Of a stretch of DNA of 64,000 bases, positions 25,882 to 43,824 are shown piece by piece. The notes beneath the pieces are model-generated. The model was not told where the DNA came from. It worked only from the letters and a program-made list of their open reading frames with translations, and ran no database searches. This stretch comes from Woeseia oceani. GTDB lineage: Bacteria; Pseudomonadota; Gammaproteobacteria; Steroidobacterales; Woeseiaceae. The stretch's first letter is position 1; the number at the start of each line of letters is the position of its first letter. Where the stretch lies: assembly GCF_001677435.1 (NCBI RefSeq), contig NZ_CP016268.1, positions 2,655,001 to 2,719,000 of the forward strand, written 5' to 3'. The translations under genes and the position numbers were made by a program.

Positions 25882-26607
25882 TCAGTCCTGTGGATTCGCC
25901 GCGAACGCCTGAGAATCAGCAATGAACAAAGTCAGTCCGACTTTACGATCCAACGCATAACTGTCGGGGTAGGTATCGTTGGCAGGTGTCTCACCGTGTG
26001 CGGAGATTTTGATCCGGCTTTCTGCAACCCCGTTGGCCACCAGCAAGTCACGTATCGAGCTGGCCCGACGCGCCGACAGATCGCGATTGTAGGTTTCATC
26101 GCCCCGTTCATCGGCAAAGCCATCGAGCTGCACCTGCACGTCCGGCATGCTGGCCAATGTCGCTGCCAACTGAGCTACACGACTGCGCGTCCCATCCACG
26201 AGCACGTGTTCGTCCGTGCGGAACAGGAGGTCCATTTCGATTCCCGCCTGCAGTAACGACAACAACTCCGGTCGCGACTGAGACTGCAAACGGCGCAAAT
26301 CACTGTCGATGACGCTGATATCACGATTGAGATCGGCGACCGTGCTTTCCAGTTCATTGACCCGCGAGCTGGAGCGCGCGAGGGAGCTTTGCAGTTCGCC
26401 AATTTCGGTATTTTTGTTGTGATAGTTGTCGCCGAATTTGGCGCCGATGGCGGCACCTATGATGGCACCAACCGGTCCACCGGCCGCTGCGCCCACGGTG
26501 AGACCGAGGCCGATGCCCAGGCGTTCTTCCTTGGGGCTGGATGCTGCCTGTGCAGTATTGCCTATCAATGCCAGTGCGGTACCTAAAATCAGTAGTGTTC
26601 GAGTCAT
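25882..26607 (-). CDS. OmpA-family protein with glycine-zipper segment
   Basis: Envelope protein of 241 aa. A signal peptide (TLLILGTALALIGNTAQA) precedes a glycine-zipper hydrophobic region (GLGLTVGAAAGGPVGAIIGAAIGAKFGD). Next come a coiled-coil stretch (about residues 70-115) and an OmpA C-terminal peptidoglycan-binding domain: VQLDGFADERGDETYNRDLSARRA, with the Asp and Arg used to bind diaminopimelate. It likely tethers an envelope component to the cell wall. It lies 147 bases downstream of the VWA gene pair on the same strand, so it may belong to that system. A terminator follows it. Confidence 0.85.
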   Translation of the reverse strand: MTRTLLILGTALALIGNTAQAASSPKEERLGIGLGLTVGAAAGGPVGAIIGAAIGAKFGDNYHNKNTEIGELQSSLARSSSRVNELESTVADLNRDISVIDSDLRRLQSQSRPELLSLLQAGIEMDLLFRTDEHVLVDGTRSRVAQLAATLASMPDVQVQLDGFADERGDETYNRDLSARRASSIRDLLVANGVAESRIKISAHGETPANDTYPDSYALDRKVGLTLFIADSQAFAANPQD

Positions 26608-26754: not shown

Positions 26755-27747
26755 TTAGCGATTGCGGTTGGTCAACGCGACGAAAGTGCCGCCATTGCGC
26801 TCGCACAGCAAACGCATGAGGCCGGCAAACCGTTGCGAACTCTGAGGGATGGTGCTGCCGCTAAACGAATATGGAAAGCCGACCGCATGAATGCGAACCA
26901 GTCGATTGCCGTCTTCGTCCTCGACATTGATCCCGTCGATGTCGCGCAGCACCGCCTCCATCGACTGGCCCTGGAATTCATCGCCAAACACGTAAATGCT
27001 GATCTTTTTGTCCGGTGCCCAGAATGTCTGAATGGCGTAGGCAATACCGTCGGACGGATCACTGTCCGAGAACGGTGCCCATTGCCGCATCGTGCTCTTG
27101 ATAGCCTGGCGCAGTTGCGGGGTGTCCGGCAACCAGGTGCGGCCGTGTTGTTCGAACATGAAGCGGCCGTTGTCGTTCATGATTTGCAGACCTTTTACGG
27201 TCGGATAAACATCCAGCACTTCGCCGAGTTTTTCCTCGGCCCAGTCCCATTTGGCCTGCATACTGCCGGAAGTATCGATCACGAAAATGATGTACTCACT
27301 GTCGACGGGTATACCGCCTATGGAATCATCCGGCGCGCGTCGGAAGTTCGGTCGCAAACGACGCATCTCTGCCGTCAGCCGTTGCCGCGCCGCCTCCAGT
27401 TCACCCTCGTCGACATCCAGCGCCGGCGCATCTTCTGAAATTAGCGCGTACTGTCCCTGAACCTTGTCGAGCTCACGCTGCAGCTGCGCCAGCGTCATAC
27501 GTGTTTCAGTGGTTTCTTCGCGTCGCGAAACCAGTTCGCGATTCAGCACGGCGGTATCACCGCGAATCTCAAACAATTCGGCTTCCAGCAAGGCAATAAG
27601 AGCATCGAGGTCTTCTTCGGATTTTTCGATAACCGAAGGTTCGTAAATCTTACTCAACACCAACAGCAACAGAATGGCACCAAAGCCGCAGGAAATGCAG
27701 TCAAGGAACGACAGGCTGAAACCTTCTACATTGCGACGTCGTCTCAT
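26755..27747 (-). CDS. VWA-domain protein with MotB/ExbD-like membrane anchor (second of a pair)
   Basis: A 330-aa protein. An Arg-rich start is followed by one membrane helix (residues 11-33) with the motif SFLDCISCGFGAILLLLVL, including Asp16 at its start. A coiled-coil region follows (about 44-135). The C-terminal von Willebrand A domain has the metal-binding MIDAS motif IFVIDTSGSM (Asp158, Ser160, Ser162). The same N-terminal motif occurs in the neighbouring VWA protein. The helix resembles the ion-carrying helix of MotB/ExbD stator proteins, and a TolQ/ExbB-like gene lies upstream in the same cluster. The gene starts 8 bases after the previous stop. Function unknown; it is probably a periplasmic binding or assembly protein. 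Confidence 0.82.
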   Translation of the reverse strand: MRRRRNVEGFSLSFLDCISCGFGAILLLLVLSKIYEPSVIEKSEEDLDALIALLEAELFEIRGDTAVLNRELVSRREETTETRMTLAQLQRELDKVQGQYALISEDAPALDVDEGELEAARQRLTAEMRRLRPNFRRAPDDSIGGIPVDSEYIIFVIDTSGSMQAKWDWAEEKLGEVLDVYPTVKGLQIMNDNGRFMFEQHGRTWLPDTPQLRQAIKSTMRQWAPFSDSDPSDGIAYAIQTFWAPDKKISIYVFGDEFQGQSMEAVLRDIDGINVEDEDGNRLVRIHAVGFPYSFSGSTIPQSSQRFAGLMRLLCERNGGTFVALTNRNR

Positions 27748-27755
27748 AGCAACAC

Positions 27756-28850
27756 CTACGGCCAGTCCTTGCTAACGCTCATGAATGAACCGCCCGTGCG
27801 GTAGGCCAGCAACCAGTACGCGACGGCGGCGTTGTAATCGCCTTCCATCGGGTACAGCAATACGTTGACCGGTACGCCACTCGGAATTTCGCGCTCGGCT
27901 TCGTAATGAAACTTCAGCCGTTCCTGGCCCGTCACCATGCCCCGCTCGGTCTCGGCGGCATTCATGGTGGGCAAGCCATCGACCAGCAAGATGACATTGT
28001 CCGGCTTCGGATTAAGGCTGTTGATCACCTTGTAGGCGTCGAGCATATTCGTCCCGTTCTCGGGCACCGTGCGGCGCAACACCCGGATGGCTTCGTCCAG
28101 CTGCTTGCCATCGCCAACATCCAGCCAGACCCCATCGCTGCCTTTGAGCACGGGCTTGGCGCTGGTGTTGAAGGTATAAATCTGAAACTTGCTGGTCGGC
28201 GGGAACTGCGCCGACAACCAGTCAACCGACGAAACTGCCTGACGCCATTTCAGGGAACGCAGTTTAACGTCCTCGGACATGTTGCGGCGGCGAATGATGT
28301 TGATGATGCGCCGGTCCAGCATGCTCGCAGAACTGTCCACCAGAACCAGAATGCGATCACCGCCCACTTTCAATCCGGTCAGGTACTGGCGATCGCCCTC
28401 ACCGGTGAACGAACGCACTTTACTGCCGGACTCACGTGCCTCTTCAGCTGCCAGCAAGCGTTTGCGCTCTTCTTCCAGGCGTTCGATATCCGACTGCAAT
28501 TTCTCCACACGCTCAACCTTCGCCAGCGTTTCCTGATCGTGTTGCGCCAGCTCGATCTTCAGCTTTTCAATAAGCGCGGTAATCTGTGCAATGCGACTGG
28601 TTGCCCGTGCCCGTTCGTCATCGAGTTCTTCCATCGTATTCTTCGCAAGCACGAGGTTTTTGCGCGCTTCGAGAACTTCGAACTCCAGCCGCGCGGTCTC
28701 TCCGCTCAGCTCTTCGGGCGGGGAGTCCGTGTCACGCCGGACCTGCGAGTTGATAATCATGAAAAACAGTACGACGGCGCCGAATCCACAGCTCATGATG
28801 TCGAGGAACGACATGCCAATGATCTGACTTTCGCGACGTTTACGCGCCAT
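27756..28850 (-). CDS. VWA-domain protein with MotB/ExbD-like membrane anchor (first of a pair)
   Basis: A 364-aa relative of the following gene product. The membrane segment (residues 14-34) reads SFLDIMSCGFGAVVLFFMII with Asp17. A long, highly charged coiled coil (about 50-140) leads to a VWA domain whose MIDAS is VLVDSSASM (Asp172, Ser174, Ser176), followed by the Thr region ENGTNMLDAY and LLVDGLPT. It overlaps the FHA gene by 11 bases and precedes the second VWA gene by 8 bases, so the three are almost certainly translated from one message. Confidence 0.82.
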   Translation of the reverse strand: MARKRRESQIIGMSFLDIMSCGFGAVVLFFMIINSQVRRDTDSPPEELSGETARLEFEVLEARKNLVLAKNTMEELDDERARATSRIAQITALIEKLKIELAQHDQETLAKVERVEKLQSDIERLEEERKRLLAAEEARESGSKVRSFTGEGDRQYLTGLKVGGDRILVLVDSSASMLDRRIINIIRRRNMSEDVKLRSLKWRQAVSSVDWLSAQFPPTSKFQIYTFNTSAKPVLKGSDGVWLDVGDGKQLDEAIRVLRRTVPENGTNMLDAYKVINSLNPKPDNVILLVDGLPTMNAAETERGMVTGQERLKFHYEAEREIPSGVPVNVLLYPMEGDYNAAVAYWLLAYRTGGSFMSVSKDWP

Positions 28851-30210
28851 GCTGCTCGTCCGTAGTAATCAGCCTGAATTCGAAACCGGGCGTACCCACC
28901 CGCAAGGAATCACCGACCTGCAGAATGGCAGACCCGTTTATTCGGTGACCGTTCAAAAAACTGCCGTAGCGGCTATGGTCCTCGACAACACATTGACCGC
29001 CTTCCCGGCGCACCTCGCAATGGCGACGCGACAAACCGGGCATATCCCCGTCGAGTTCGATAAAGCGCGTCGCCGTGTCCGGCTGGGACCCGAGCACGAG
29101 ACTCTGCTCGTCGATGCGCCAGGCGATATCACCGAACAGCAGATGCGTCGGTATACCGCTTTTGCTGGCAGCGGTGTCTGTCGGCCGAATCTCGATGGCC
29201 GCCTGATCCCACGGCAGCTGCCGCAGCAAGCTGACACTGCCACCGTCGCGGACGCTGCCCCGACAGCGAGCCAGCGCTCCGCGCGCGGTCGCGCCGGTTT
29301 CCAGCGCGTAAATTTCTCCGCCCACCCTGGCCAGCAGCAGGTCAGCCAGTCCCGGCAGGCTCGCAATCCGCGAAGTGATCTGAATTGCCGGCACTTCGTC
29401 GGCGCGATAGAGCGCCCGGAGGCGATTGGCAATTTGCTGGTACCAGGGGGCTGCCGCACCTATCAGGCTCAGGGACTCGATTTCCGCGCTGTGACTTACT
29501 CCCCCGCTCGTCACGGTCATCGATACGCTATCCGCACGACCCGCGAGACGCAGCCACTGCCCCATTTGATCCAGCAGCATTTGTTCGGTCTCAGCCGTGT
29601 GCAACGGGTCAAACCGGGACTGGCGAACGAATGCTTCCGCTATGGTTTTCAGCCAGGCATCGTACAGCGGGTAGGTGCCGCAGGAGTCGATCACTTCACT
29701 CGCTTCCACGATGGCGCCGTCAACCTGGCCAAGGCGGGTCAGTGTAGTGGCATGCAGGCCGCAATCGACGTGAACTGGCACTGCGTTCCGGTACTCCCGC
29801 CGGGTAGCCGCGACGGCAGCATCCACCATGGCCGAAACCGGCATACCAATGTCCGCAGCGATACCGAGGACGAGCCCGAGTTGTGACGCCGTCAGGTACG
29901 CCGGGACAGCGACAATCAGCTCATCAATACCGTTGCCCGCCGTTGCCCACATGTGCTCCAGTTGCCGGCTCGCGAGATCTGCCGCCGTCAGGTGCGCGAA
30001 ACGCTGCTCCAGCAGCGCCGTAGTTGCAAGCTCCATCCAGTGGCGATGCTGAAGATGACGCGGGTTGATGCGCGCCCGGGCGAACGCGTCAATCCCCGTT
30101 GTCAGCTGATCCTCCGCAAGCAGCACGAAACCCGGTTGCCGGTACAACAGCCGCTCCGTCGTCAGCAAGGTGATGCCGGCGTCGTTCAGGTGAATCGCGG
30201 CGCGGGTCAT
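28840..30210 (-). CDS. Actin-like (ASKHA) ATPase domain fused to a C-terminal FHA domain
   Basis: A 456-aa soluble protein. Residues 1-310 resemble a divergent Hsp70/FtsA-like actin fold: LIVAVPAYLTASQLGLVLGIAADIG, then the phosphate-2-like loop VHVDCGLHATTL and the adenosine-like loop TSRIASLPGLADLLL. Residues 357-450 form an FHA domain with the phospho-threonine-binding residues in LSRRHCEV and SRYGSFLNG. FHA domains bind pThr peptides, so this protein probably reads the output of the kinase encoded upstream. The start at ATG 30210 is supported by GGAG nine bases before it; an upstream GTG (30225) is less likely. The actin-fold call rests on motif spacing and is moderate. Confidence 0.75.
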   Translation of the reverse strand: MTRAAIHLNDAGITLLTTERLLYRQPGFVLLAEDQLTTGIDAFARARINPRHLQHRHWMELATTALLEQRFAHLTAADLASRQLEHMWATAGNGIDELIVAVPAYLTASQLGLVLGIAADIGMPVSAMVDAAVAATRREYRNAVPVHVDCGLHATTLTRLGQVDGAIVEASEVIDSCGTYPLYDAWLKTIAEAFVRQSRFDPLHTAETEQMLLDQMGQWLRLAGRADSVSMTVTSGGVSHSAEIESLSLIGAAAPWYQQIANRLRALYRADEVPAIQITSRIASLPGLADLLLARVGGEIYALETGATARGALARCRGSVRDGGSVSLLRQLPWDQAAIEIRPTDTAASKSGIPTHLLFGDIAWRIDEQSLVLGSQPDTATRFIELDGDMPGLSRRHCEVRREGGQCVVEDHSRYGSFLNGHRINGSAILQVGDSLRVGTPGFEFRLITTDEQHGA

Positions 30211-30291
30211 GATCGCAGGCTCCACGCATCACTGGCTGCTTGCACTGCAAGTGGCGACTTATAACCAATGGCCATCGAAGCACGCATAGAT

Positions 30292-31092
30292 TCAGTCGGA
30301 CTTCATGTGCCGAATCAACTTGTTGTTCGCGTAGTTCTCACTGTCGAACACCAGTCGTTCCTGCAGCAATTGCAACTGGTGCACCAGGAACATGAGAAAA
30401 ATACTGATCAACAGGGCGATGAACGTGGAGTTGAACGCAACACCGAGGCTCTGAGTGACGCCGGCAATATCGCCCTGCACGGCTTTGTCCGCTTGCGCCA
30501 GCGCCTCACCGATACCGCGCACGGTACCGATAAACCCAATGGAAGGAATCGCCCAGGAAATGTAGCGAATCATGGACAGTTCGGATTCCAGCTGCTCGGC
30601 TTCTGATTCAAACTGGGTATGCGTGCTGCTCGCCACATCCTGAATGTTGCGGGTCGAACTGAACCGTTGCAGCGCATTCAACAAGGCGCGCGGCAACATC
30701 AACTTCTGCTGGTGCTCCGGCAAGGCCTGTACCTGGCGCGCAAACTCGCGGGTATCCTCCGGCAGGATGCGCATGCCCTCGGCGATCGCCACCAGGTCCG
30801 TTTCCAGCAGCATACGCTCCTGCAACAGCAGCCGTGCTTTGAAACCCATAATCGCCAGCGCCCAGAACATCAGAATGAAGCAGGACTCCTGCTCCAGATC
30901 CTTGATCAATACCCAGGTCGATCGCTCGCGAACGTAATCAGGGTTGGCCTGTGCCTCCAGTGCCTGCTGTGCGATAACCTCGGCGGCGTTCGGCCGTACC
31001 ACGGCCACATAAAACGCGTGCACCACGATGATGGCGATAATCAGTGCAAACAGCTGGTATACGAACTCTACGGGAATATTCTTCTTTTTCAT
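30292..31092 (-). CDS. MotA/TolQ/ExbB-like proton-channel protein
   Basis: A 266-aa inner-membrane protein with four predicted helices: about residues 10-32, 70-86, 176-197 and 213-240. The last two match the MotA/TolQ/ExbB family: ISWAIPSIGFIGTVRGIGEAL, then GVTQSLGVAFNSTFIALLISI, with a cytoplasmic helical domain between helices 2 and 3. These proteins form a ring around a partner helix carrying a protonatable Asp. There is no classic ExbD/TolR/MotB gene here, but the two VWA proteins downstream carry an Asp-containing helix of the right kind. It lies 36 bases after the small acidic protein gene. Confidence 0.85.
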   Translation of the reverse strand: MKKKNIPVEFVYQLFALIIAIIVVHAFYVAVVRPNAAEVIAQQALEAQANPDYVRERSTWVLIKDLEQESCFILMFWALAIMGFKARLLLQERMLLETDLVAIAEGMRILPEDTREFARQVQALPEHQQKLMLPRALLNALQRFSSTRNIQDVASSTHTQFESEAEQLESELSMIRYISWAIPSIGFIGTVRGIGEALAQADKAVQGDIAGVTQSLGVAFNSTFIALLISIFLMFLVHQLQLLQERLVFDSENYANNKLIRHMKSD

Positions 31093-31128
31093 GCAATGCA
31101 GTTCCTGGTTGCAGCGACCGGCCCAAAA

Positions 31129-31392
31129 TCAAATATTGGTCGGAAACGGAATTGGTTCGTCCGCCGGAATTTCTTCAGTCGGGACGAAGTCGTCGTCATC
31201 TTCTTCGTAGGTTTGCAGATCGAGGTCGGAATCATCAATTTCGTCAGCTTCAACGTCGCCAGCGTCCGCATCAGCCGTATCCGCGGGTTCCTCCGCTGCC
31301 GTTTGAGCCGCCGCCGGGTCAGCGCTCTCCTGCGCCACCGTGAAGGTCGCTGCAAGCAGTCCACAAAGCATTATCAGCGTCAGTTGTTTCAT
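31129..31392 (-). CDS. Small secreted acidic protein
   Basis: An 87-aa protein with a signal peptide (QLTLIMLCGLLAATFTVAQ) and a mature part made almost entirely of Ala, Asp, Glu, Pro and Thr, including the runs DIDDSDLD-like and YEEDDDDF, so it is very acidic and probably disordered. No domain is recognised. The start at ATG 31392 is chosen because it begins the signal peptide directly. It may bind cations or act as an assembly or phosphorylation substrate of the neighbouring kinase system; both ideas are speculation from position. Confidence 0.7.
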   Translation of the reverse strand: MKQLTLIMLCGLLAATFTVAQESADPAAAQTAAEEPADTADADAGDVEADEIDDSDLDLQTYEEDDDDFVPTEEIPADEPIPFPTNI

Positions 31393-31457
31393 TTTGGGTG
31401 CCTGAAAGGAGATCTTGTTCAGTTGGACAGCCACGAGGGCAAAATATCCCGTGTTCC

Positions 31458-33884
31458 TTACAACGCGCTCCGCGCCAGGCGGAAACCAACATCCACCCGT
31501 CCCGCCGTGCCAAAGTCACGATAGCTCAGGCGCAGCTCTGTAATCCCGGCGTGCCGCCAGCTCGAGCCGCGTATAACCCGTTGCGCGCCGCGTTTCGGCC
31601 CCAGTGGATCCTCGCTCGCCGTTGTCTGTCCGGGCGTCGGCACAGCATAGTAATCCTGTACCCACTCGGCAACATTGCCACCGCCATCGTAGATACCGAG
31701 CGCATTGGCAGGAAAACTGCCAACCGGAGCTGTTGATGCGAAACCGTCATTAAAGCCCGGTAACACGGTAGGCACGAGTTCTCTGGCGGCCTGGTCGGCG
31801 TAATTGCCACTATCACGGCGCGGCGGCAAGCGGTTGCCCCACGGGAAGACGCTTGCTTCCGAACGCGCCTGATAGCGTATCGCCCAGGTCCATTCGGCTT
31901 CCGTAGGCAAGCGGTAACCGTCCGGCAAAGGCGTAACGACCTCCCATTTCTCGAAGCGTTTCTCATAGACCGGCGTCAAGCCTTCCTGCCGGCTCAACCA
32001 GTTGCAGTATTCGACGGCGTCGGCCCAGCTGACGTTGGTAACCGGGTTATTGTTGCCGGCCAGGGACGCATGGATGTCGCCGCCGGAATCGTGCGTGTTG
32101 CGAAAGCGCAGAAACTCCGAGTTGGTCACTTCTTTGGTGCCAATGTAGAACGGCTTGGTCAGCGTCACTGGCACTATTACTTCGTTGGCGCGCCGGCCTT
32201 GCTGACTGCGCGAGGCCCCCATCGAGAAGGAGCCCGGTTCGACGCGGCGCATGACCTGACCTTGCGATGTGCTGACCGTGGTCGCGATGCTGCGCATGCG
32301 CACCTCTTCGTCGGACAACAGGCGAACCTGTATGGTCTGCGGGTAACCGGGGCGCGGCGTGATACTGCGACTGAATGTTTCGTAGCCGTCCTTGCGAACT
32401 TCGAGTTGCTGTGGCGCCGAAGGCAGCTGCAAAGTCACCGAACCACTGCCGCGTGGCTGACCGTTAAGATAAATGACCGCATCTTGCGGCAAGGCGTTGA
32501 TGGTTACCTCGCCCGCGCGCGCCGTCAGGTCCACGGTGATCGCCTGGGTCGCTGCCGCTTGCAGGCGCACACTGCGCACGGTCGATCCGTAACCAGCTTT
32601 CGACAGGCCAATTTCGTAATCCACGTCCGGCGACAAAGCCAGCTTTATGGGTGACTGGCCGCGATAGCGGCCGTCCACGGACACGTTCGCACCGAGCGGA
32701 ATGGAATTGACCTGCAATTGCGCGTTCGCTGGCGTCAGTCGGATCAGTGGCAGTTCCTGGGCAACATTGGCCACGGCATCGACCACACCTTCCCATGCGC
32801 TAAAGCCTTCCTTGACCACCGTCAGATCGTGACTGCCTTCGTTGAGTCTTATGGAGAGGGGGGTTTCACCGAGCGTTTCTTCACCGCGCAAGACCACTGC
32901 CCCGGCCGGCTCGGAGCTGATAGACACGTCTGCCCATGCTGGCACCAGTTGCACATCCAGCAACTGAAAAATCCCGAGGCCTGGCACCGTCAGCTCGTAG
33001 TCGAATGGCAAGTAGTTATCGGCGCGGACCGTAACCAAATGCGTACCCGGTTCCAGCTCCAGCGGACCGTAGGGTGCGCGACCGAGCATCGTTCGATTCA
33101 CGGTAACCATCGCATCGACATCGGGATCGGTAGTGACCTGCAGCTGGCCAGGCAGCTTCCGCATCTCGATTGTGACCGTGCGGCTCGGTGACTCATCGAC
33201 ATCCAGGCTCTGGTTCACATCGTAATAGCCCTCTTTCTCGACATGTACCGTGTAGCTGCCTTCGCGCAATAACAAGCGGTCTGCCAGTGGCAATTGAAAC
33301 CAGCCGCCGGATACTTCAAGACGATCAGGTGGCCCCGGGTACACGTCAAACTGTATGGATCGTGAGGAAAACAGCAGATAGGAAATGCCCACCAGCAACG
33401 CAACACCAACGGCAACCGCCGTCTGCCACGTGTAGCGCTTCTGCGCTACCGTCGCCGGCCGCACTTCAGCGGCACGACGGAAGGCGGACGGTGCAATGGT
33501 TTCTTCAGCGCCTCCGCTACCGGCACCCGGTGCCGACGGCGGTTGGGTCACGTAAGCGCTGTCTTCAAGCTTGACGGCGAGTGTCAGTGTACTGTCCGTC
33601 ACGGACACCAGCAGCCGCGTACCGTAATAGAGAATGACATCGGCGTCGCGCAACGAACGGGTCCCGAGCAACGGTTCGCCGTTGATCTGCATGTCGCCGC
33701 CGCGTACGCCGGGCTGCAGAAAGGCTTTGCCATCAAGCTGATCCAGCGTTGCAACGACAGAACTGCCAGGCCCCGGCAAGCGCAGCTCGCAATCGGTGCC
33801 GGTACCAATGCGGATCGGCAAGGACTCAGTACCGAGTCGCTGCACACCCGCGGCGGTGTCGATGATCACCGTCTCAAGAGTCAA
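31458..33884 (-). CDS. Degenerate-FHA / PEGA-repeat / FGE-sulfatase-like membrane protein
   Basis: An 808-aa protein. Residues 20-95 look like an FHA fold (LPIRIGTGTDCELRLPG) but lack the SxxH and Asn residues that bind phospho-threonine. One membrane helix lies at about 154-173. About five PEGA-type repeats (roughly 176-525) follow, recognisable by GSYTVHVEKEGY, GTHLVTVRADNY, GSHDLTVVKEGF and QQLEVRKDGYE. The C-terminal 260 residues are an FGE-sulfatase/SUMF1 domain (GSFSMGAS, KEVTNSEFLRF, YRLPTEAEW, GNVAEWVQDYY). The catalytic cysteine pair of true formylglycine-generating enzymes is missing near RVIRGSSWRHAG, so it is probably a binding module. The TTG start overlaps the kinase stop as TTGA. 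Confidence 0.85.
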   Translation of the reverse strand: MTLETVIIDTAAGVQRLGTESLPIRIGTGTDCELRLPGPGSSVVATLDQLDGKAFLQPGVRGGDMQINGEPLLGTRSLRDADVILYYGTRLLVSVTDSTLTLAVKLEDSAYVTQPPSAPGAGSGGAEETIAPSAFRRAAEVRPATVAQKRYTWQTAVAVGVALLVGISYLLFSSRSIQFDVYPGPPDRLEVSGGWFQLPLADRLLLREGSYTVHVEKEGYYDVNQSLDVDESPSRTVTIEMRKLPGQLQVTTDPDVDAMVTVNRTMLGRAPYGPLELEPGTHLVTVRADNYLPFDYELTVPGLGIFQLLDVQLVPAWADVSISSEPAGAVVLRGEETLGETPLSIRLNEGSHDLTVVKEGFSAWEGVVDAVANVAQELPLIRLTPANAQLQVNSIPLGANVSVDGRYRGQSPIKLALSPDVDYEIGLSKAGYGSTVRSVRLQAAATQAITVDLTARAGEVTINALPQDAVIYLNGQPRGSGSVTLQLPSAPQQLEVRKDGYETFSRSITPRPGYPQTIQVRLLSDEEVRMRSIATTVSTSQGQVMRRVEPGSFSMGASRSQQGRRANEVIVPVTLTKPFYIGTKEVTNSEFLRFRNTHDSGGDIHASLAGNNNPVTNVSWADAVEYCNWLSRQEGLTPVYEKRFEKWEVVTPLPDGYRLPTEAEWTWAIRYQARSEASVFPWGNRLPPRRDSGNYADQAARELVPTVLPGFNDGFASTAPVGSFPANALGIYDGGGNVAEWVQDYYAVPTPGQTTASEDPLGPKRGAQRVIRGSSWRHAGITELRLSYRDFGTAGRVDVGFRLARSAL

Positions 33885-36229
33885 ATTCGTTCCTCACATT
33901 GCACGATGATCGGTTTCATTTCGATTTCCGGTGCGACCCGGAACTCCAGTCGCACGTCACGGTACCCTGCCCGACTGCCAAGTGCGACATACGAGCCCGG
34001 GCGCAACTCCAGTTGCCGGCTGTCGAAAGTACCCAGCCGGCCGACCCGGAATATCGATACCTCGGTCTGGTTGTCGGACTGCAGCTGAACCGGCAACGGC
34101 GTTGCCGCTCGTTTCAAAAGGCGGGCCAGCGTTGCTTTTTCGTCTTCGAGGCGCGGCCCCGAGGGCGTAATCCGCGACAATTCAAGTAGCAAACCAGTAG
34201 CAGCCTGCATTGTGTCCGGCGAACTCAATGAATCCGGCTCGCTGATATAAGCCGCGAGACGCTTGTGCAAACCCGCTCTTTGCGTGGCTCGTCGCAGACC
34301 TTCCTTTGCGAATTGCAGATCACCGTCAACCGACAATGCCTCCTGGTAACTGTCGATGGCCGCTTCCCACTGCTCGGCCTCCTCTTGTTCCAACGCAGCG
34401 GATTCCAGGCTTTGTATCCGCAACAGGCGGACTTCCTGGTCAACTTGCAACAGTCCGTCGACCGGCTGCCGCGAATCGGGGCGCATTGCTTTGGCTGCTT
34501 CAAACGCAACCCGGGCGCTGTCGTAGTTATTGCTGGCCAGCGCCATGAATCCTTCGGTCATTCGGGATTCGAATGCCAGTTGTTCCAGCGCCGCGCGTAC
34601 CCGCGTCAGTGCCTCTCGCGCTGGCTGCCATTGTGGATCGATATCCAGCGCACCCGAGAAGGCCTGCAAAGCGGCATCGTACTCGAGGTTTTTCTCAAAC
34701 GCCCTGCCACTGTCCATCAGGCGCAGAACACTCTCGATATTTTGCGCGCGCTTCAGCCCCTGCTCGGCCTCTGCATTGCCCGGCGTAATCGCCACAGCGA
34801 GATCAAAAAGCCGGATTGCCTCGCGATGATCCTGCGCGTCAAACGCTGCACGGGCTGCCGCCATCGTTTCCCGGAATACCTCAGGAATCCGATCAAAGAA
34901 GGGCTCGAGCATGGTCGATGCTGCACGGTAGTGATCGCCGGCGGCCTGATAATTCTTGGCGAGGTACGCCTCGTCGCCAGTCCCGTACCGGTCGAGGACA
35001 TCAAGAAATTCCTGTCCGCCCCACCGATCAATACCACGGTAGCGCAAGCGTTCGAGTTGCGAGAGCAGATCACCGAGCGCATCGTCGGTGGCCGCCTTGA
35101 TCGCAGTGTCGCTGCTGCCGTCGCTGCGCGGTGTGTTTTCGTTGAACTCGGCAACCTCTTCTTCGGTTGTATCAGCGAGCTTGTCGGCTGCGGATTCCCC
35201 GGCTCCCGCCGTGACAGCTTGCTCTGATTCTGCTTGCACCGCAGGCAACTCGTCAGCAGGTGGCAGGACGAATAACACCGCGAGAAACGCCGCCAATAGC
35301 AAGCCAAGACCGACCACAACCGCACTGAGCGGCACACCACCACTCTTCGTGACCGGGCCCTTTGCCGCCGCCGTTTGCGACGCTGGTCGGGGTCGCACCG
35401 AGCGAACTTCGATTTCTTCGGACGCCGGTGCACCGTTGCTGACGCTTGCCGCAAGTGGCGTGACGCCTGGCGGGAAGCCGGCCGTTTTCAGTGCCTCGGC
35501 GACCGCCTCCGCGTCAGGTCGGGCAGCCCGCTCCGGTGCCAGCATGCGACTGAGCAGATCGCGCAAACTGGCAGGCAGTTTTTCACCACGGCTGTCGGTC
35601 AGTGCCGGTTCACCGGCAAGCGGTGGCGCACCACAGACCAGTTCATTCAACAGTATCGCGAACGCGTAGATGTCATCCGCAGGATGTGCCGGTTCACCGG
35701 CCTGTTGTTGCGGACTCAGTGCCACCGGTGTGCCACCGGTGCTTTGCGTCGCGCCGTCAGCCCGCGCTGCCCCGAAATCCAGCAAGTAAGGCGCGCCCCT
35801 GGCATCCAGTACAATGTTGGCACCGGTAAGATCGGAGTGGACGATGCCCTTGCCATGCGCGTAACGCAACGCATCCGCAATCAGGCCTGCGGGCCCCAGA
35901 ATTTGTTCGAGGGGCCGCCCGTGCAAGGCGGATATTGACTGACCAGCCAGGTATTGCAGTGCGAAGTACGGCCGCTCATCGTCATCGTGATAATCAAAAA
36001 CACGCACGATGTGGGCATGCATCAAACGACTTGCTGTTTGCCACTCACGGCGAAAGGCATCGTGACGGGCAGTGTCCGCAGCGAACTTCTCGTGCAGAAT
36101 TTTGAGCGCCACCTGGCTGTCGTTGCGGGCATCCTGTGCCAGCCATACGTCAGCCATAGCACCGCCGCCAACACGCCGAATCAGCGTGTAGCGGCTGGAC
36201 AGACAAGTGCCTTCAGTCAGTGCCTGCAT
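33881..36229 (-). CDS. Transmembrane Ser/Thr protein kinase with extracytoplasmic TPR-like region
   Basis: A 782-aa receptor-type kinase. The kinase domain (about 13-250) has a glycine loop RRVGGGAMADVWLA, ATP-binding Lys43 in QVALKIL, a likely alpha-C Glu62, the catalytic loop VHSDLTGANIVL (Asp133) and DFG at 151-153. The usual HRDLKxxN is thus HSDLTGAN, so it is a non-RD kinase, but the core residues are kept. A Ser/Pro linker precedes one membrane helix (301-323). The rest is rich in TPR-like helical repeats (YLAKNYQAAGDHYRAAS, YDAALQAFSGALDIDP, WEAAIDSYQEALSVD) and would lie outside the cytoplasm. The start at ATG 36229 is preferred over GTG 36277. It probably phosphorylates the targets read by the FHA protein. 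Confidence 0.87.
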   Translation of the reverse strand: MQALTEGTCLSSRYTLIRRVGGGAMADVWLAQDARNDSQVALKILHEKFAADTARHDAFRREWQTASRLMHAHIVRVFDYHDDDERPYFALQYLAGQSISALHGRPLEQILGPAGLIADALRYAHGKGIVHSDLTGANIVLDARGAPYLLDFGAARADGATQSTGGTPVALSPQQQAGEPAHPADDIYAFAILLNELVCGAPPLAGEPALTDSRGEKLPASLRDLLSRMLAPERAARPDAEAVAEALKTAGFPPGVTPLAASVSNGAPASEEIEVRSVRPRPASQTAAAKGPVTKSGGVPLSAVVVGLGLLLAAFLAVLFVLPPADELPAVQAESEQAVTAGAGESAADKLADTTEEEVAEFNENTPRSDGSSDTAIKAATDDALGDLLSQLERLRYRGIDRWGGQEFLDVLDRYGTGDEAYLAKNYQAAGDHYRAASTMLEPFFDRIPEVFRETMAAARAAFDAQDHREAIRLFDLAVAITPGNAEAEQGLKRAQNIESVLRLMDSGRAFEKNLEYDAALQAFSGALDIDPQWQPAREALTRVRAALEQLAFESRMTEGFMALASNNYDSARVAFEAAKAMRPDSRQPVDGLLQVDQEVRLLRIQSLESAALEQEEAEQWEAAIDSYQEALSVDGDLQFAKEGLRRATQRAGLHKRLAAYISEPDSLSSPDTMQAATGLLLELSRITPSGPRLEDEKATLARLLKRAATPLPVQLQSDNQTEVSIFRVGRLGTFDSRQLELRPGSYVALGSRAGYRDVRLEFRVAPEIEMKPIIVQCEERI

Positions 36230-36242
36230 TAGTCGTCGGTAC

Positions 36243-37490
36243 TCAATCGCGGATTTGCGCGGACCTGGCGGGCACACCGACGTCTAAGTCATCAGGGAAG
36301 CCGGTTTCCAACTGGTAGATATCTTTGAGCAATTTGCGCCAACTTTCGTACTGCGCTTCAGCCGTCCCCGTCAGGCGGCGTGACTCGCCTTCCACCTGCA
36401 CGGTGAGCGGCGCCGCTTCCGCAATAAACGACTCCGACAATTCGCGAATATCTTCCCTGTACATATCGGCGGACTGACGCAGGTTCCATGCACTGATGAT
36501 CGTCTCGATACCGCGGTTGATACCGACGGCCTGAGTAACACTTTTCGCACGACGCCGTGAGCGGCTAGAGCTGTCGGTATCCATCTGCAGAGAACCTGCC
36601 ACCACAACCACACCCAACAGGGCGCGCATGGTTGCCGAGCGCTTCACCTGCCGTATGTTGATGGCGTTTTCCCGGGCTTTCTTGCGCCAGCCCTCGTACG
36701 GCAGTGCGACACCGTAGTAAAAGTTGGCGTAATGCTCATTCAGCGTATCGATAACCAATCGATCGCGCTCCCGTATCTGCCGCAAACGCTCAACCATTGG
36801 GTCATTCTCAGCCGGTAATCGCAGCAAGCTGCTCATCCCTGCCTCGTCGGTCGTCACGTAATCGCCGTAGGTGTCCGGTGCCATATCGGCGAAGAACTGC
36901 ATCTCCGAAACCTGCCGGATTCTCTGTATATCTGCATTGCTTAACGTCAGTGCGAACGCATGCATATCATTGGCAATGTCGTTGAACACTTTCTGGTAAG
37001 GGTCCTGCGAGCGATCGCGACCCTGATCGAAGGAACGGATTCCGGTCTGCATATCGTAACTGCGTTCAAACCAGTGACGGCCGGTCGCGTCCTCAACCCG
37101 CACCCGAAGTTCAATGTACTCGCCGTCCGAGCGTTCAATTTCGCCGCTGAGCGTAACGTCGGTAAATACGTACCGTGACGGAATAACACGCACCGCACCC
37201 CAGTAACCCGTGCCCTGCAACGTGGTCTTTATGTGGTACGGCAAGTAGCGCGCTTCGGCGCGCCGGATTTCTTCATAGACTCCGGTTTTTTCCGGATCGT
37301 TGCTTTTCGGGATGCCCTCGTCGAAATTGATAATGCCGACATCCAGTAACAGGTTCTCGGCAATCTCCTGCCTGGCCACTTCCAGGTCGGTGTGCTCTGC
37401 CGTGATGACTTCCGATACTGTGCAGGCTGTTGTCAGGAATAGCGTCGCGACAATGAGTGATGCGGGCAAAAAGGTGTAACGTTCCGTCAT
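36243..37490 (-). CDS. Uncharacterised lipoprotein (415 aa)
   Basis: A predicted lipoprotein: signal peptide LPASLIVATLFLTTAC with lipobox LTTAC. The mature protein has no domain I can name. It contains an N-terminal beta-rich part (YWGAVRVIPSRYVFTDVTLSGEI...YIELRVRVEDATG) that could be a ligand- or subunit-binding domain, and a helical basic C-terminal part (RQVKRSATMRALLGV...SSSRSRRRAKSVTQ). It lies 35 bases after the Gly-rich lipoprotein gene and 13 before the kinase gene, so it is probably the outer-membrane or periplasmic component of this cluster. The start at ATG 37490 begins the signal peptide. Confidence 0.75.
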   Translation of the reverse strand: MTERYTFLPASLIVATLFLTTACTVSEVITAEHTDLEVARQEIAENLLLDVGIINFDEGIPKSNDPEKTGVYEEIRRAEARYLPYHIKTTLQGTGYWGAVRVIPSRYVFTDVTLSGEIERSDGEYIELRVRVEDATGRHWFERSYDMQTGIRSFDQGRDRSQDPYQKVFNDIANDMHAFALTLSNADIQRIRQVSEMQFFADMAPDTYGDYVTTDEAGMSSLLRLPAENDPMVERLRQIRERDRLVIDTLNEHYANFYYGVALPYEGWRKKARENAINIRQVKRSATMRALLGVVVVAGSLQMDTDSSSRSRRRAKSVTQAVGINRGIETIISAWNLRQSADMYREDIRELSESFIAEAAPLTVQVEGESRRLTGTAEAQYESWRKLLKDIYQLETGFPDDLDVGVPARSAQIRD

Positions 37491-37525
37491 GTGATGGTCG
37501 TCCGTACCGTGTCGTGCATTCGGTG

Positions 37526-38518
37526 TTACAGCCGATTGTATCGTCGATACTCGTCCCATAGCCGCTCGCGCAATTCCGGATCTTCTTCGGCGAGCGCCGC
37601 CTCGCGCAACTGTTTGGCGACGATGTCTTCGCTCACCAGATCGGGAATGTCGGCAGGTGTTCGACTCTTGATCTCGTCTTCGCTCATGCCCGCCACGCTG
37701 GGCGTGCTGCCGCCGCCACCCGCGTTGCCCGCACCGGCCTGACTGCCCGCACCGTTGTCACCGGTACCGCGCATGCCTTCCTGGCGGCCAAGGCCTACCC
37801 GGCCACTACCACCGCCGCCACCGGCACCGCCAAAGCCTTCCGTGTCCCGGCTGACGGTGGAAATTTCCCGTTGTTCTTCAGCAAGCACTTCATCGAAGCC
37901 GCCCACCGATTCCTCCAGTTCGCCTTCCAGCCGTGCTTTGCGTTGTGCCGCAGTTTCGCCGGGGTACTGGCCAACGTCGCCGGCGCCGTTGCAATCGGCA
38001 GGTTGTTCCATGCCGCCCACACCGCCGGGCACTTCGCTGGAATTGCAGTCGCTGCCGGTACCGCCCGCAGCACCTGGCATACCGCCCGGCATCTGCCCAC
38101 CCAGTCCTTGGACGCTGCCGCCGCCAGCGCCGCCGCCACCGGCTGCACCGCCAGCCATGTCGCCACCGGCCGCACCTCCGGATGATCCTCCCGACATACC
38201 CCCGGCGGAGGACCCGCCGGGCATGCTGCCACCGGAGGAACCCCCCGACATACCGCCGCCGGACGAACCACCGGGCATGCTGCCACCGGATGAACCACCG
38301 GACATACCGCCACTGGAGGACCCGCCCGGCATACCGCCACCGGACGAACCGCCGCTGGAGCCACCCGGCATACCACTGCCCGACGAACCGCCGCTGGCAC
38401 CACCCCCGCTGCTTCCGACCGACACCGCACAACCGCCGGCCATCAATATCATTGATGCACCGAACAGCACTGTCGCGCCGCGCAGGGTAGTAATTCGATT
38501 TTGCTTGATCGCGCTCAT
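37526..38518 (-). CDS. Gly/Ser/Met-rich repeat lipoprotein
   Basis: A predicted lipoprotein of 330 aa (lipobox MAGGC, Cys30). Residues 35-150 are low complexity, built from nonapeptide units such as MPGGSSGGG and MSGGSSGGS, corresponding to a 27-bp DNA repeat. The C-terminal third is charged and helical (RKARLEGELEESVGGFDEVLAEEQREIS ... DPELRERLWDEYRRYN, quoted in part) and looks folded or coiled. No family is recognised. It is the first gene of the kinase/FHA/VWA cluster, and its Ser-rich repeats could be surface-exposed or phosphorylated. The start at ATG 38518 begins the signal sequence. Confidence 0.72.
   Translation of the reverse strand: MSAIKQNRITTLRGATVLFGASMILMAGGCAVSVGSSGGGASGGSSGSGMPGGSSGGSSGGGMPGGSSSGGMSGGSSGGSMPGGSSGGGMSGGSSGGSMPGGSSAGGMSGGSSGGAAGGDMAGGAAGGGGAGGGSVQGLGGQMPGGMPGAAGGTGSDCNSSEVPGGVGGMEQPADCNGAGDVGQYPGETAAQRKARLEGELEESVGGFDEVLAEEQREISTVSRDTEGFGGAGGGGGSGRVGLGRQEGMRGTGDNGAGSQAGAGNAGGGGSTPSVAGMSEDEIKSRTPADIPDLVSEDIVAKQLREAALAEEDPELRERLWDEYRRYNRL
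38170..38405 (-). repeat. 27-bp tandem repeats inside the Gly-rich lipoprotein gene
   Basis: About eight imperfect in-frame units of 27 bp encoding alternating MPGGSS and MSGGSS nonapeptides. Units differ mainly at third codon positions, which argues for selection on the protein sequence. Copy number may vary between strains. Confidence 0.8.
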
Positions 38519-38864
38519 GTGAAAAGTGGCCTCACTGCGTGGTCTGTGTGTGGCAAGCGGAGGCGGTTTGGGGCCCGCTCGCACCGTCTTTGTTGTTGCT
38601 TGGATTGCAACAGGCGGCGGTAAGTTCCGTCACAAACTACCGCCAGCAAGTGTTTCAGACCTTAATACGCCTGTGCGGCACTCGCAACAACAGATCGACG
38701 TCGATACCGCGCCAGCGCACGGCCTCGGGGACGCGTATCGGAATTAATCTAAGTTATTGATTTGAAATAAGCCTGGGCCGGATGGCGGGCTCATGCCGGG
38801 TCCGGCCGCACAGCGCCTGAGTGGGGGGCTCGGGGACACTGTGCGGCCGGCTGGCGGGGGTTAA
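38519..38864. other. 346-bp interval upstream of the kinase cluster
   Basis: No gene seen. It should hold the promoter of the minus-strand cluster; the most AT-rich part is 38741-38770, but no clear -35/-10 pair is visible. A 12-bp perfect inverted repeat (38802-38813 with 38839-38850, 25-base loop) lies just after the Spy-like stop. It lacks a T-run, so it may be a processing or regulatory structure rather than an intrinsic terminator. Confidence 0.45.
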
Positions 38865-39404: not shown

Positions 39405-39473
39405 GTGCATTCCTCAGTTCCGCTATCGGCACAACGTTGATGTTGCAGCCTGTGGATGAAGCATAGTGAGAAC

Positions 39474-39491
39474 ACCGTCAGGTACCGTCAG
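39474..39491. promoter_or_regulatory. Candidate response-regulator box: ACCGTCAG direct repeat with 10-bp period
   Basis: Two identical octamers (39474-39481 and 39484-39491) are repeated exactly one helical turn apart in the divergent intergenic region between the Spy-like gene and the Cpx-like regulator gene. OmpR-family regulators bind tandem half-sites with this spacing. The sequence differs from the enteric CpxR box. Confidence 0.55.
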
Positions 39492-39596
39492 CAACGCGCA
39501 ATGCACTGCAAAGAAATGTCAAACGAAACCGTTCAGCGTTGCGTGCCGCGGCAGTTTCGCCGACGATGAGACCCTACTGTACCTACGGGCCACACC

Positions 39597-40298: not shown

Positions 40299-40306
40299 GC
40301 AGCATC

Positions 40307-41677: not shown

Positions 41678-42493
41678 TTACTGCGGTTTCTTCGCTTTGC
41701 CGGGTTTGCGGAACAAAATCACTGACAGGTCATCCGGCTTGCTGGGCTGATTGCCGGATTCGGCCGACATGCGGCGTGCCGCAAGCCGGGTCAGTTGCTC
41801 AACCGCGCCCTGCAGCGAGCCCTTGCGGATAATCTCGATCGTTTCATGCAGGTGAATGTTGTCGGTCAGGCCGTCACTCGCGAGCAGCACCGTATCCCTG
41901 GACTGCAACTCCACGGCCGCACCCATATCGATACGCATGTCGGCCGTCCCCAAAAAATTGGAAACCAGGTGCCGTTCTGCATGGTGCAGTGCTGCACGCT
42001 GATCGAGAAAACCCGCCTCGACCGCGAAGCCGGTGGGTGAATGCGCCATCGTCTGCAACCGGACTCTGCCACGTTGCCCGACAACCAGTGCTTCCGAATC
42101 ACCAATCTGATAGGCGCGCACATTGCGTCCTTCGATGCCGACCACGGTCAGCGTCGTAGCCGCGCCATTGCCCAGGTCGAGCACGGCGCGGTTCGCCGCT
42201 TCAATGCCGTTGAGTATCGCAGTTCGCATCAGCATTGTGTCTTCTTGTGCCTGCTGCAGTGAGCGACGCAGTTCGGTCACTGCCATTTGCGACGCACGCT
42301 TGCCCGCCGGCAATCCGCCGGCGCCGTCCGCCACTACCAGAACGGCCGCCGCTGGCCCGTACTCTATCGCGGCAACCGTGTCTTCATTCTCGGTCTCTTT
42401 GTCCGGCGCAACGCAGCTGTACGCTACGAGTTCGCCACCAGCGATCGACAGTGAGCGCTGATCCGCTGTTCTCGCGCCATCCAAAATTGTCAT
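41678..42493 (-). CDS. PP2C-family Ser/Thr protein phosphatase
   Basis: A 271-aa metal-dependent phosphatase. The PP2C metal-binding motifs are visible: NEDTVAAIEYG near the N-terminus, VVADGAGGLPAGKRAS (DGxGG), LLASDGLTDN and the final Asp in KPDDLSVI. I chose the ATG at 42493, because the longer frame runs into the upstream kinase gene and adds unrelated sequence. It is the second gene of a kinase-phosphatase pair on the minus strand, 41 bases after the kinase stop. It could reverse phosphorylation by this kinase and perhaps by the TPR-linked kinase encoded 5 kb away. Confidence 0.9.
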   Translation of the reverse strand: MTILDGARTADQRSLSIAGGELVAYSCVAPDKETENEDTVAAIEYGPAAAVLVVADGAGGLPAGKRASQMAVTELRRSLQQAQEDTMLMRTAILNGIEAANRAVLDLGNGAATTLTVVGIEGRNVRAYQIGDSEALVVGQRGRVRLQTMAHSPTGFAVEAGFLDQRAALHHAERHLVSNFLGTADMRIDMGAAVELQSRDTVLLASDGLTDNIHLHETIEIIRKGSLQGAVEQLTRLAARRMSAESGNQPSKPDDLSVILFRKPGKAKKPQ

Positions 42494-42534
42494 TTCATTG
42501 TCAGCCGTTCCATGGGCCCGCGCCCGTCGTAAGA

Positions 42535-43824
42535 CTATTCGCGCCCGACCGGCTCCCGGCACCACGCGCAGAAGTTCCAGAAGTCGTCGCATATTCCCGA
42601 ATGGCAGGCACTGCAAGTTGCCTTGCTGCCTGCTATCTTCCACGGCCGCTTGACCTTGGTGCGACACCAGGGACAGTAACGCATGAACGGCATTAACGGC
42701 TCCCGACAACGCGTATTCGCGCAACGTGCGCTGTAGCGCTTGTCGGGATAATGCCGGTTGGTCTCAGTTTCAAAACCAGGGCCGTAACACCATGCGCAAT
42801 AATCCCAATCCAGTTTTACACCGCGCTCACAACGTGGACAGTGCGCAGGCATGCGCGTTGTGCAGCCGCGCGCCGGATTATCGAAACCACACCAGGGACA
42901 GGCCTGCATGCTTTCCGCAACCGGGCCTTCGCAGCGCCGACACTGGTGAGTCGTCTCCAGCGTCTTGCGATAGCGGCGCTGGAACTCGCGCCAGCGAATT
43001 TGTCGCCATGAGCTACCCTGTTTCGACGACGACTTCGCACTGGCCCGGCGCTGGCGTCGCGCCCGCGTCTGCAACTTGTCGAAGGCTTCGTACATCTCGA
43101 TGGCGTCGGCATAGCGTTCCGCCGGATCGATGCGCAACGCCTTCTTCAGGAACTCCGCAAACTCCGGGCGAAACCGCGCTTTCAAGCGATCATGCCCCAG
43201 CAGCGGCCATTCATACGGCCATTCCGGCAGCTTGCCGCTGAACATGCGGTACAGCACCAGACCTACCGAAAATACATCAGACTGGAACTTCGGCCGACCC
43301 ATCGCCTGCTCCGGCGCAATGTAATCGATCGTCCCGGAGCCTGACGCTTTCAAGGTGCGCACGCTGATTTTCGCGAAGCCGAAATCGGCGAGTTTCAGCG
43401 TGTTGTCGGCGAACAGTATGTAGTTCTCCGGTTTGATATCGCAGTGAATAATCTTGTGTTCATGGGCATGTGCCACGGAGACCAAAGCCTGTTCGGCCAG
43501 ATCCAGTGCACGCGCTGTCGAAATGCGCCGTTCCAGGCGGTCACCGAGAGATTCTTCGCCCAATTCCATCGCGATAACAAAATGCTCGTCTATGTAGCTG
43601 GCGTTTTGTACCGCAAGAATATTTGGGTGCTTCAGTCGGGTCGCGACCTGGACTTCATGCAGGAAGTCTTCATGGGACGTTCCGTGATGATCCTTTTTCG
43701 GGATTTTCAAGGCGACGCGACATTTGTGTATGGTATCGAATGCACGATAGACATCAGCCAGCGGGCCGCTGGCGATGCGTCCAAGTATCCGGTATTTGCC
43801 GAGCTTCTGGCGCGCGCGAAACAA
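42535..43824 (-). CDS. Ser/Thr protein kinase with four C-terminal zinc-ribbon-like clusters
   Basis: A 429-aa cytoplasmic kinase with no membrane helix. The kinase domain (about 11-250) has ATP-binding Lys40 in RVALKIP, catalytic loop IIHCDIKPENYIL (Asp129, Asn134), DFG at 147-149 and the APE-like segment YIAPEQ. A basic linker follows. The last 135 residues carry eight CxxC-type pairs (about 295/298, 309/312, 329/332, 343/346, 368/373, 384/387, 404/407, 419/422), consistent with four zinc ribbons of the CPWC/CAWC kind. The frame has no ATG near its start; TTG at 43824 is the only reasonable start, since an in-frame TGA lies close upstream. It pairs with the PP2C gene downstream. Confidence 0.88.
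   Translation of the reverse strand: MFRARQKLGKYRILGRIASGPLADVYRAFDTIHKCRVALKIPKKDHHGTSHEDFLHEVQVATRLKHPNILAVQNASYIDEHFVIAMELGEESLGDRLERRISTARALDLAEQALVSVAHAHEHKIIHCDIKPENYILFADNTLKLADFGFAKISVRTLKASGSGTIDYIAPEQAMGRPKFQSDVFSVGLVLYRMFSGKLPEWPYEWPLLGHDRLKARFRPEFAEFLKKALRIDPAERYADAIEMYEAFDKLQTRARRQRRASAKSSSKQGSSWRQIRWREFQRRYRKTLETTHQCRRCEGPVAESMQACPWCGFDNPARGCTTRMPAHCPRCERGVKLDWDYCAWCYGPGFETETNRHYPDKRYSARCANTRCREPLMPFMRYCPWCRTKVKRPWKIAGSKATCSACHSGICDDFWNFCAWCREPVGRE

Follow-up and report, generated by a model that had tools for sequence, protein, structure and literature searches.

Do nine adjacent genes of Woeseia oceani, which combine a Ser/Thr kinase, FHA domains, a TolQ-like channel and von Willebrand factor A (vWA) proteins, encode a single machine of the cell envelope, and of which kind? 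The genes are located in the 64,000-nucleotide stretch of DNA analysed here (the window; contig NZ_CP016268.1, positions 2,655,001 to 2,719,000 of the forward strand), within a complete genome of 4,059,891 bases. A first-pass annotation of this DNA, made from the letters alone, had proposed an undescribed, phospho-controlled and possibly ion-powered envelope machine. The nine genes were found to form one conserved unit, far beyond chance. Judged by sequence, their core reads as a candidate 5:2 ion-driven motor, with a TolQ-like ring and two vWA proteins bearing an Asp helix. The interpretation preferred, with a probability of roughly 60%, is a machine that spans the envelope and is powered by the proton motive force, with a vWA-tipped axle, outer-membrane lipoproteins as targets, and a kinase and an Hsp70-FHA protein as optional parts.

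Nine genes conserved as one unit

Nine consecutive open reading frames (ORFs) occupy positions 26755–38584 of the window on the minus strand (or to 38518, if the last gene starts at its likely ATG), and the ORF list bore out the nine adjacent genes of the first-pass annotation. In the order of transcription, they are:

LipoA, 37526..38518, minus strand: Gly/Ser-rich predicted lipoprotein with a conserved C-terminal motif (EDIVAKQLREAA..E.DPELRERLWDEYRRY); ORF to 38584
LipoB, 36243..37490, minus strand: predicted lipoprotein with a FlgT/PelC/CsgG/TolB-N-like domain (~55-210) and long helices (254-382); ORF to 37559
Kinase-TPR protein, 33881..36277, minus strand: Ser/Thr kinase domain, transmembrane helix (~320-338) and TPR tail; kinase domain optional across homologues
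PEGA/FGE protein, 31458..33884, minus strand: degenerate FHA domain, transmembrane helix (~155-173), five PEGA repeats and an FGE-fold domain without the expected Cys
Small acidic secreted protein, 31129..31392, minus strand: conserved C-terminal FPx[DN]I-COOH; ORF from GTG 31434, likely start 31392
TolQ/ExbB/MotA-like channel subunit, 30292..31092, minus strand: PF01618 at 2e-15; proposed pentamer ring
Hsp70-FHA, 28840..30225, minus strand: Hsp70/DnaK nucleotide-binding-domain-like domain (~5-328) and FHA domain (~360-453); likely start ATG near 30210
VWA2, 27756..28850, minus strand: membrane helix with Asp17 (SFLDIMSCGFGA), coiled coil and vWA domain; resembles VWA1; proposed axle subunit 2
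VWA1, 26755..27747, minus strand: N-terminal membrane helix with Asp16 (SFLDCISCGFGA), coiled coil and vWA domain with a metal-ion-dependent adhesion site (MIDAS); proposed axle subunit 1

Two gene pairs overlap by 4 and 11 bases, independently of the choice of start; the remaining small gaps and overlaps vary with the start codon chosen. The ORF caller was simple, so start codons and the lipobox counts given below are rough. An OmpA-like gene follows the last gene of the cluster.

Two sets of loci were compared. Forty loci, with stretches of up to 20 kb, were picked for diversity and long contigs from the genomes of the window's order with VWA2 matches; a further 80 were the best 80 of at least 546 VWA2 relatives in GTDB species genomes, found with a VWA2 motif pattern. 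Some of the latter repeat genomes of the former, and unique counts are those after deduplication. Gene order was assessed in 84 non-redundant loci with full coverage, the window not being counted.

Of 147 genomes sampled from the order, 123 had a VWA2 match, some of them genomes of about 1.4 Mb, and the cluster was present around the 40 matches chosen, mostly with all eight larger genes. One identical eight-gene order was kept in 67 of the 84 loci, so that the kinase-protein, TolQ-like and VWA genes co-occur across genomes in a conserved order; in 7 more loci the order differed only by the missing Hsp70-FHA gene, and all cluster genes lay on one strand in 83. Each gene was found in nearly all of these loci (PEGA 84, kinase/TPR 83, TolQ 82, VWA1 82, LipoA 81, LipoB 80 and Hsp70-FHA 76), the vWA pair standing beside a tolQ homologue.

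Because the fetched loci were chosen for VWA2, paired searches with VWA1 and LipoB provide a less biased test. In 274 genomes of the class, the VWA1 profile gave 25 matches at E ≤ 0.001, 18 of them with at least 286 bits, and the LipoB profile gave 19. The 18 and the 19 coincide in 17 genomes, with about 1.2 expected if they were independent (not corrected for kinship). One exception was a draft of 560 contigs (G243), in which cluster pieces were split over two contigs. Another (G329, locus L164), with a LipoB match only, bears a decayed cluster with broken kinase-protein and LipoB remnants and no motor genes matched in 20 kb. At phylum level, 16 of 249 genomes matched, 14 of them strongly (at least 241 bits), and 12 of those 14 belong to one family outside the class (f204).

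Among the best 80 of at least 546 relatives, the labels were Gammaproteobacteria, Deltaproteobacteria/Desulfobacterales/Desulfatiglandales, Myxococcales, Acidobacteria (Vicinamibacteria, Thermoanaerobaculia) and Kiritimatiellia, and the cluster was present as far as the contigs extend. It was seen in bins assigned to several other phyla. The nearest VWA2 relatives among the GTDB matches listed showed 73–77% identity; those named to family or genus were Woeseia sp. or Woeseiaceae bins (L080, L081, L082, L116), and the remaining ones were labelled only Gammaproteobacteria or Proteobacteria. The names given to bins can be mistaken: the cluster occurs in two GTDB bins called Klebsiella pneumoniae (L137, L144), which are probably mislabelled.

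A motor-like core and its proposed envelope partners

Both VWA1 and VWA2 start with a short basic stretch followed by one hydrophobic helix according to hydropathy (residues 14–32 and 15–33, respectively), which begins at the Asp of the motif SFLDxxSCGFGA. In the VWA1 alignment, D16, D158, S160, S162 and D256 were each present in 121 of 121 sequences. In that of VWA2, D17 was conserved in 126 of 126 and the MIDAS residues D172, S174, S176 and D291 in 125 or 126; the invariance of Asp17 arises partly by construction, as the search pattern held the motif, while Asp16 of VWA1 was not so selected. The Pfam matches to VWA_2 (VWA1) and VWA_2/VWA_3 (VWA2) were below threshold, but the MIDAS signature (DxSxS ... 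D), invariant or nearly so, upholds the earlier naming of both as VWA proteins.

The channel subunit, correctly recognised before as TolQ/ExbB-like, conserves Thr190 and Thr223 in 118 of 118 sequences each, and these align with T145 and T178 of the solved TolQ 8odt_A (profile alignment, E 0.011). ExbD/TolR genes (PF02472) were present in 16 of 16 genomes checked, none of them inside the cluster and the closest about 7 kb away (G400). MotB was looked for, without result, by the Pfam scan of the window proteins only, with no wider search. The window's genome carries seven MotA/ExbB-family genes, including that of the cluster. A VWA1-TolQ fusion suspected from a 673-residue ORF in locus L165 was not found.

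One system with motor-core residues is well supported by these data, and the idea of one envelope machine, probably ion-powered, was strengthened: genes co-occur in a kept order and the motor residues are invariant. The VWA proteins look like the axle subunits of such a motor. A TolQ-like pentamer in the inner membrane would enclose the two Asp-bearing helices of the VWA1/VWA2 pair, which would stand in for TolR, ExbD or MotB as axle.

A precedent for this core exists. PMC12204202 (Mol Biol Evol 2025) is a computational proposal, with proteins of Idiomarina loihiensis as reference, in which paired vWA proteins with a transpore helix (TPH) are the dimer of a TolQ-like pentamer; as there described, that motor shares with the present cluster a TolQ homologue, a heterologous vWA pair with an Asp helix, the lack of a TolR/ExbD gene and a Thr ring. 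The likeness is one of description only, and the passages of that paper on the TPH-vWA motor mention no kinase, Hsp70-FHA, PEGA/FGE, LipoA or LipoB, no FPx[DN]I protein and no function; in its main text 'kinase' never occurs, and the single match to 'FHA' is the beginning of the name FhaC. It was the only direct precedent recognised in a search of open-access literature, and a term search in the text of a review of 5:2 motors (PMC9389320) retrieved no passage on vWA or kinase. The word 'undescribed' consequently holds for the remaining parts, for which no description was found, and not for the TolQ and paired-vWA core, which had been predicted.

On the periplasmic side, the gene between those of the PEGA/FGE protein and the TolQ-like subunit encodes a short secreted protein with conserved last residues and a variable remainder. 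The pattern [FYLW]Px[DN]I-stop, defined after the sequences had been seen, was found at this place in 101 of 106 unique loci, in 0 of 106 on the opposite strand and in 1 of 4,964 other windows used as controls. This count omitted four loci (before deduplication) in which PEGA and TolQ are far apart (L053, L074, L112, L172), as well as L164, L180 and L182. A few members, among them L075, L168 and L178, share only the very end of the tail. LipoA is of low complexity except for its C-terminus; its strict C-terminal pattern occurs in 63 of 99 homologues, and the end is common to examples from distant groups. Neither LipoA nor LipoB matched a Pfam family.

The AlphaFold2 (AF2) model of LipoB (pLDDT 83.4) shows a domain at ~55-210 followed by long helices. 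This domain resembles FlgT (Z 10.3, 132 residues, 3.7 Å), PelC (Z 9.7, 111 residues, 2.3 Å), CsgG (Z 8.9) and the TolB N-domain (Z 8.8); the absence of a family from such structural lists does not exclude that family. Its fold is shared by ring-forming envelope proteins and by the non-pore FlgT, TolB and PqiC.

The preferred machine may be pictured as follows. Ion flow would turn the VWA1/VWA2 pair, moving the periplasmic coiled coils and the vWA heads with their metal sites. The peptides engaged by the heads would most likely be the FPx[DN]I tail of the small secreted protein, the LipoA tail or both, and the PEGA/FGE and TPR scaffolds would carry force to LipoB, putatively in the outer membrane. 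The force might organise or tether the outer membrane, roughly as Tol-Pal does, and force transmission to this membrane is the output favoured. In many lineages, though not in all, the TPR protein bears a cytoplasmic kinase domain, which together with the Hsp70-like/FHA protein could regulate assembly or engagement from the cell interior.

The Tol-Pal system (TolQRAB-Pal-CpoB) is comparable in its TolQ-type motor, its TPR protein, a lipoprotein with a TolB-N-like domain and an OmpA-like neighbour. It differs in that the cluster lacks TolR in the 16 genomes mentioned, where ExbD/TolR is encoded elsewhere, and has vWA proteins in TolR's place; LipoB lacks the TolB beta-propeller, being helical past residue 254, and only the N-terminal domain of TolB aligns.

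More tentatively, the cluster might stand beside Tol, Ton, Mot, Gld, Agl and Zorya as a trans-envelope motor in a class of its own. Its metal-site vWA heads would catch and release the FPx[DN]I and LipoA tails, converting proton motive force into a cyclic pull on an outer-membrane LipoB ring, under kinase/Hsp70-FHA control in some lineages. The cluster lists nearly all the parts of this motor family; its C-terminal peptide motifs and invariant Asp offer a direct handle on what a vWA-tipped motor pulls, and it bears on whether a 5:2 motor can be under the control of Ser/Thr phosphorylation.

Contrary evidence and alternative explanations

Several observations weigh against this machine or against the roles given to its parts. 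One genome (G357) has VWA1 without a LipoB match, and no TolQ match was found in its 20 kb. The LipoB fold match is moderate, as the best Z is 10.3 and models without a clear match often reach 7–8. Foldseek gave nothing at E ≤ 0.001 with the LipoB model, and its profile found no convincing relative among solved sequences (best E 0.67), so the likeness is one of fold only. Lipobox-like signals were found, with a rough pattern, in 69 of 97 LipoB and 67 of 99 LipoA ORFs. The tail of the small protein is FPTNI in the window, and thus its Asp is not universal.

Others concern phosphorylation. The transmembrane Ser/Thr kinase named in the first-pass annotation was confirmed (Pfam Pkinase 4.6e-27, plus TPRs), and its Lys, HxD Asp, Asn and DFG are present in the window and in 58–60 of about 65–67 homologues bearing the domain; the window has HSDLT, versus HRDLK-type residues (R and K) in most. 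Within the cluster, the kinase domain was found in 64 of 92 unique loci and was not detected in 28, although the transmembrane and TPR tail stays. Absence here means no match to our own hidden Markov model (HMM) within the fetched stretch, and a kinase may lie elsewhere in the 28 genomes, as the count covers the cluster only. In 8 loci, before deduplication, the domain was a separate adjacent ORF. The kinase state changes at least 8 times on a FastTree tree of VWA1, VWA2 and TolQ.

The Hsp70-like domain was present in all 64 kinase loci and missing in 8 of the 28 others, which is suggestive as a raw pattern. Loss of the two together was nevertheless rejected as evidence of a single signalling module: on the tree their link is not significant, the test on independent pairs giving a median p of 1 with too few pairs. 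Neither a kinase domain nor an Hsp70-FHA gene was detected in loci L049, L125, L126, L128 and L145; the first of these belongs to a genome of about 1.4 Mb, so that a small genome retains the machine in the absence of the kinase layer. The cluster of a cultured environmental carrier, Microbulbifer sediminum TT37 (L153), also showed no kinase domain.

The protein formerly described as an actin-like ATPase-FHA fusion does carry an FHA domain (3.6e-11), and its ATPase part has specifically the fold of the Hsp70/DnaK nucleotide-binding domain. In the AF2 model (pLDDT 92.4), this part superposes on DnaK 2v7y (Z 29.9, 322 aligned, 3.2 Å), and the profile also matches the Hsp70 SSB1 (E 1e-4). No substrate-binding domain lies behind it; the FHA domain stands there. 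The phosphate and adenosine loops look altered with respect to what we take to be the canonical ones, with Asp15 kept in 89 of 98 sequences and Asp/Glu154 in 97.

At the FHA positions presumed to be canonical for phosphothreonine (Arg after the beta3-beta4 Gly, Asn in SxNG), the usual Arg occurs in 12 of 98 sequences and Tyr/Phe replaces the usual Asn in 77; the window has Ser380 and Tyr420, respectively. Classical phosphothreonine reading by this protein is doubtful because these residues are mostly missing.

The membrane protein previously described as degenerate-FHA/PEGA/FGE-like was confirmed by five Pfam PEGA matches and the FGE fold; 'degenerate' is fair for its N-terminal FHA domain, as it had no Pfam match. 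An FGE enzyme was rejected: at the positions presumed to hold the active-site cysteines, no Cys occurs in the window, nor among the six commonest residues at 770-803 in 102 homologues.

The proposal of phospho-control is only partly supported, and is weakened as a defining feature because the rest of the cluster persists without a detected kinase in 28 of 92 loci; FHA residues are atypical, and PP2C genes were found in only 11 of 40 loci.

Among other explanations, a gliding or surface-adhesion machine, with the motor driving surface lipoproteins as in Myxococcus Agl-Glt or Bacteroidota Gld/type IX secretion (T9SS), is unlikely. Agl-Glt pairs the Tol-type motor AglR/Q/S with the vWA outer-membrane lipoproteins CglB and CglD, as described in passages of PMC4488436, and in both known systems vWA or FGE-fold proteins of the envelope are partners of a Tol-type motor. 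Here the vWA domain is fused to the motor helix, and matches to Glt and Gld models all stayed below the cut-offs: the FGE-fold domain matched the GldK/PorK model at 4e-27 and LipoB matched CglF at 1.2e-3, both far under the cut-offs. The FGE fold common to both can account for the GldK match. None of the ten proteins scanned matched an adhesin or translocon family, and most named carriers are metagenome bins.

An export machine is improbable. LipoB would form a PelC/CsgG-like pore or collar in the outer membrane, and the motor would power the release of a polymer or protein; the resemblance of its N-domain to PelC and CsgG is what suggests it. That fold, however, also occurs in the non-pore proteins named above, the LipoB model has long helices instead of additional barrel strands, and no synthase or barrel family was matched among the cluster proteins.

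Scarcely more than an outside chance is given to a sensor complex, in which periplasmic PEGA, FGE, TPR and vWA domains would report the state of the envelope to the kinase, with the TolQ-like part as energy sensor or gate. The kinase and FHA domains do lie N-terminal to a single predicted transmembrane helix, with large repeats C-terminal to it, and in P. aeruginosa TagQ/TagR feed PpkA, according to passages of PMC10482370. Signalling through the kinase cannot be the shared core function, since motor and scaffold remain in the 28 loci where its domain was undetected.

Threonine-phosphorylation control of type VI secretion, or a TerY-like vWA/PP2C/kinase triad, has next to no credibility despite kinase, FHA and (in the window's family) PP2C genes being close together, because the vWA proteins bear a motor-type membrane helix, the cluster is also found without a kinase domain or PP2C, and control of type VI secretion is contradicted for this genome by the lack of TssC. 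With the type VI secretion pathway TagQRST-PpkA-Fha-PppA the cluster shares a membrane kinase, an FHA protein, a lipoprotein and an FGE-fold periplasmic protein (presumably TagR there); it differs from that pathway in the lack of TssC, the optional kinase domain and the atypical FHA domain fused to an Hsp70-like one. The earlier view that no type VI system is involved was thus sustained: TssC/VipB had no match in the complete genome, with the E. coli control detected, while Hcp, VgrG and Ter were not searched genome-wide.

Neighbouring genes and a sister arrangement

Two further genes of the window may be related to the preferred machine:

OmpA-like glycine-zipper protein, 25882..26607, minus strand: Pfam OmpA 6.1e-15, as annotated before; adjoins the cluster in the window's family and some others; possible accessory
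PP2C-type phosphatase, 41678..42724, minus strand: PF13672 at 3.1e-16; near the cluster mainly in the window's family; possible kinase antagonist

The 11 order loci with a PP2C gene within the fetched 20 kb comprise 9 of the window's family and 2 of one other family. Upstream of the cluster, positions 38865-42724 hold a gene for a Spy-like LTXXQ protein, a two-component pair of response regulator and histidine kinase, and the PP2C gene. A PdsO/sortase system was rejected, as the OmpA-like protein scored 128 bits against a PdsO cut-off of 152, and the closest models of the two-component pair were CpxR/CpxA, with scores under their cut-offs. Anti-phage defence was likewise rejected: no recognisable defence set was seen in the PADLOC matches of the ten scanned proteins, which were to kinase models (chiefly PD-T4-6, with mad6 and others) and, weakly, to ZorA/ZorB for the channel and OmpA proteins and to coiled-coil models.

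A sister arrangement was observed at L180 (6121-10749) and L182 (5563-13107). It has a membrane-helix protein with the SALDLFASAMGAF motif, with a vWA domain by Pfam in L180 only; both loci bear a trypsin-FHA protein (Pfam) and a PP2C-like ORF (own HMM), and to these L180 adds a TolQ-like gene and L182 Ser/Thr kinase ORFs. From a reading of the best matches, this arrangement occurs in 3 of 185 genomes of the class, including that of the query itself.

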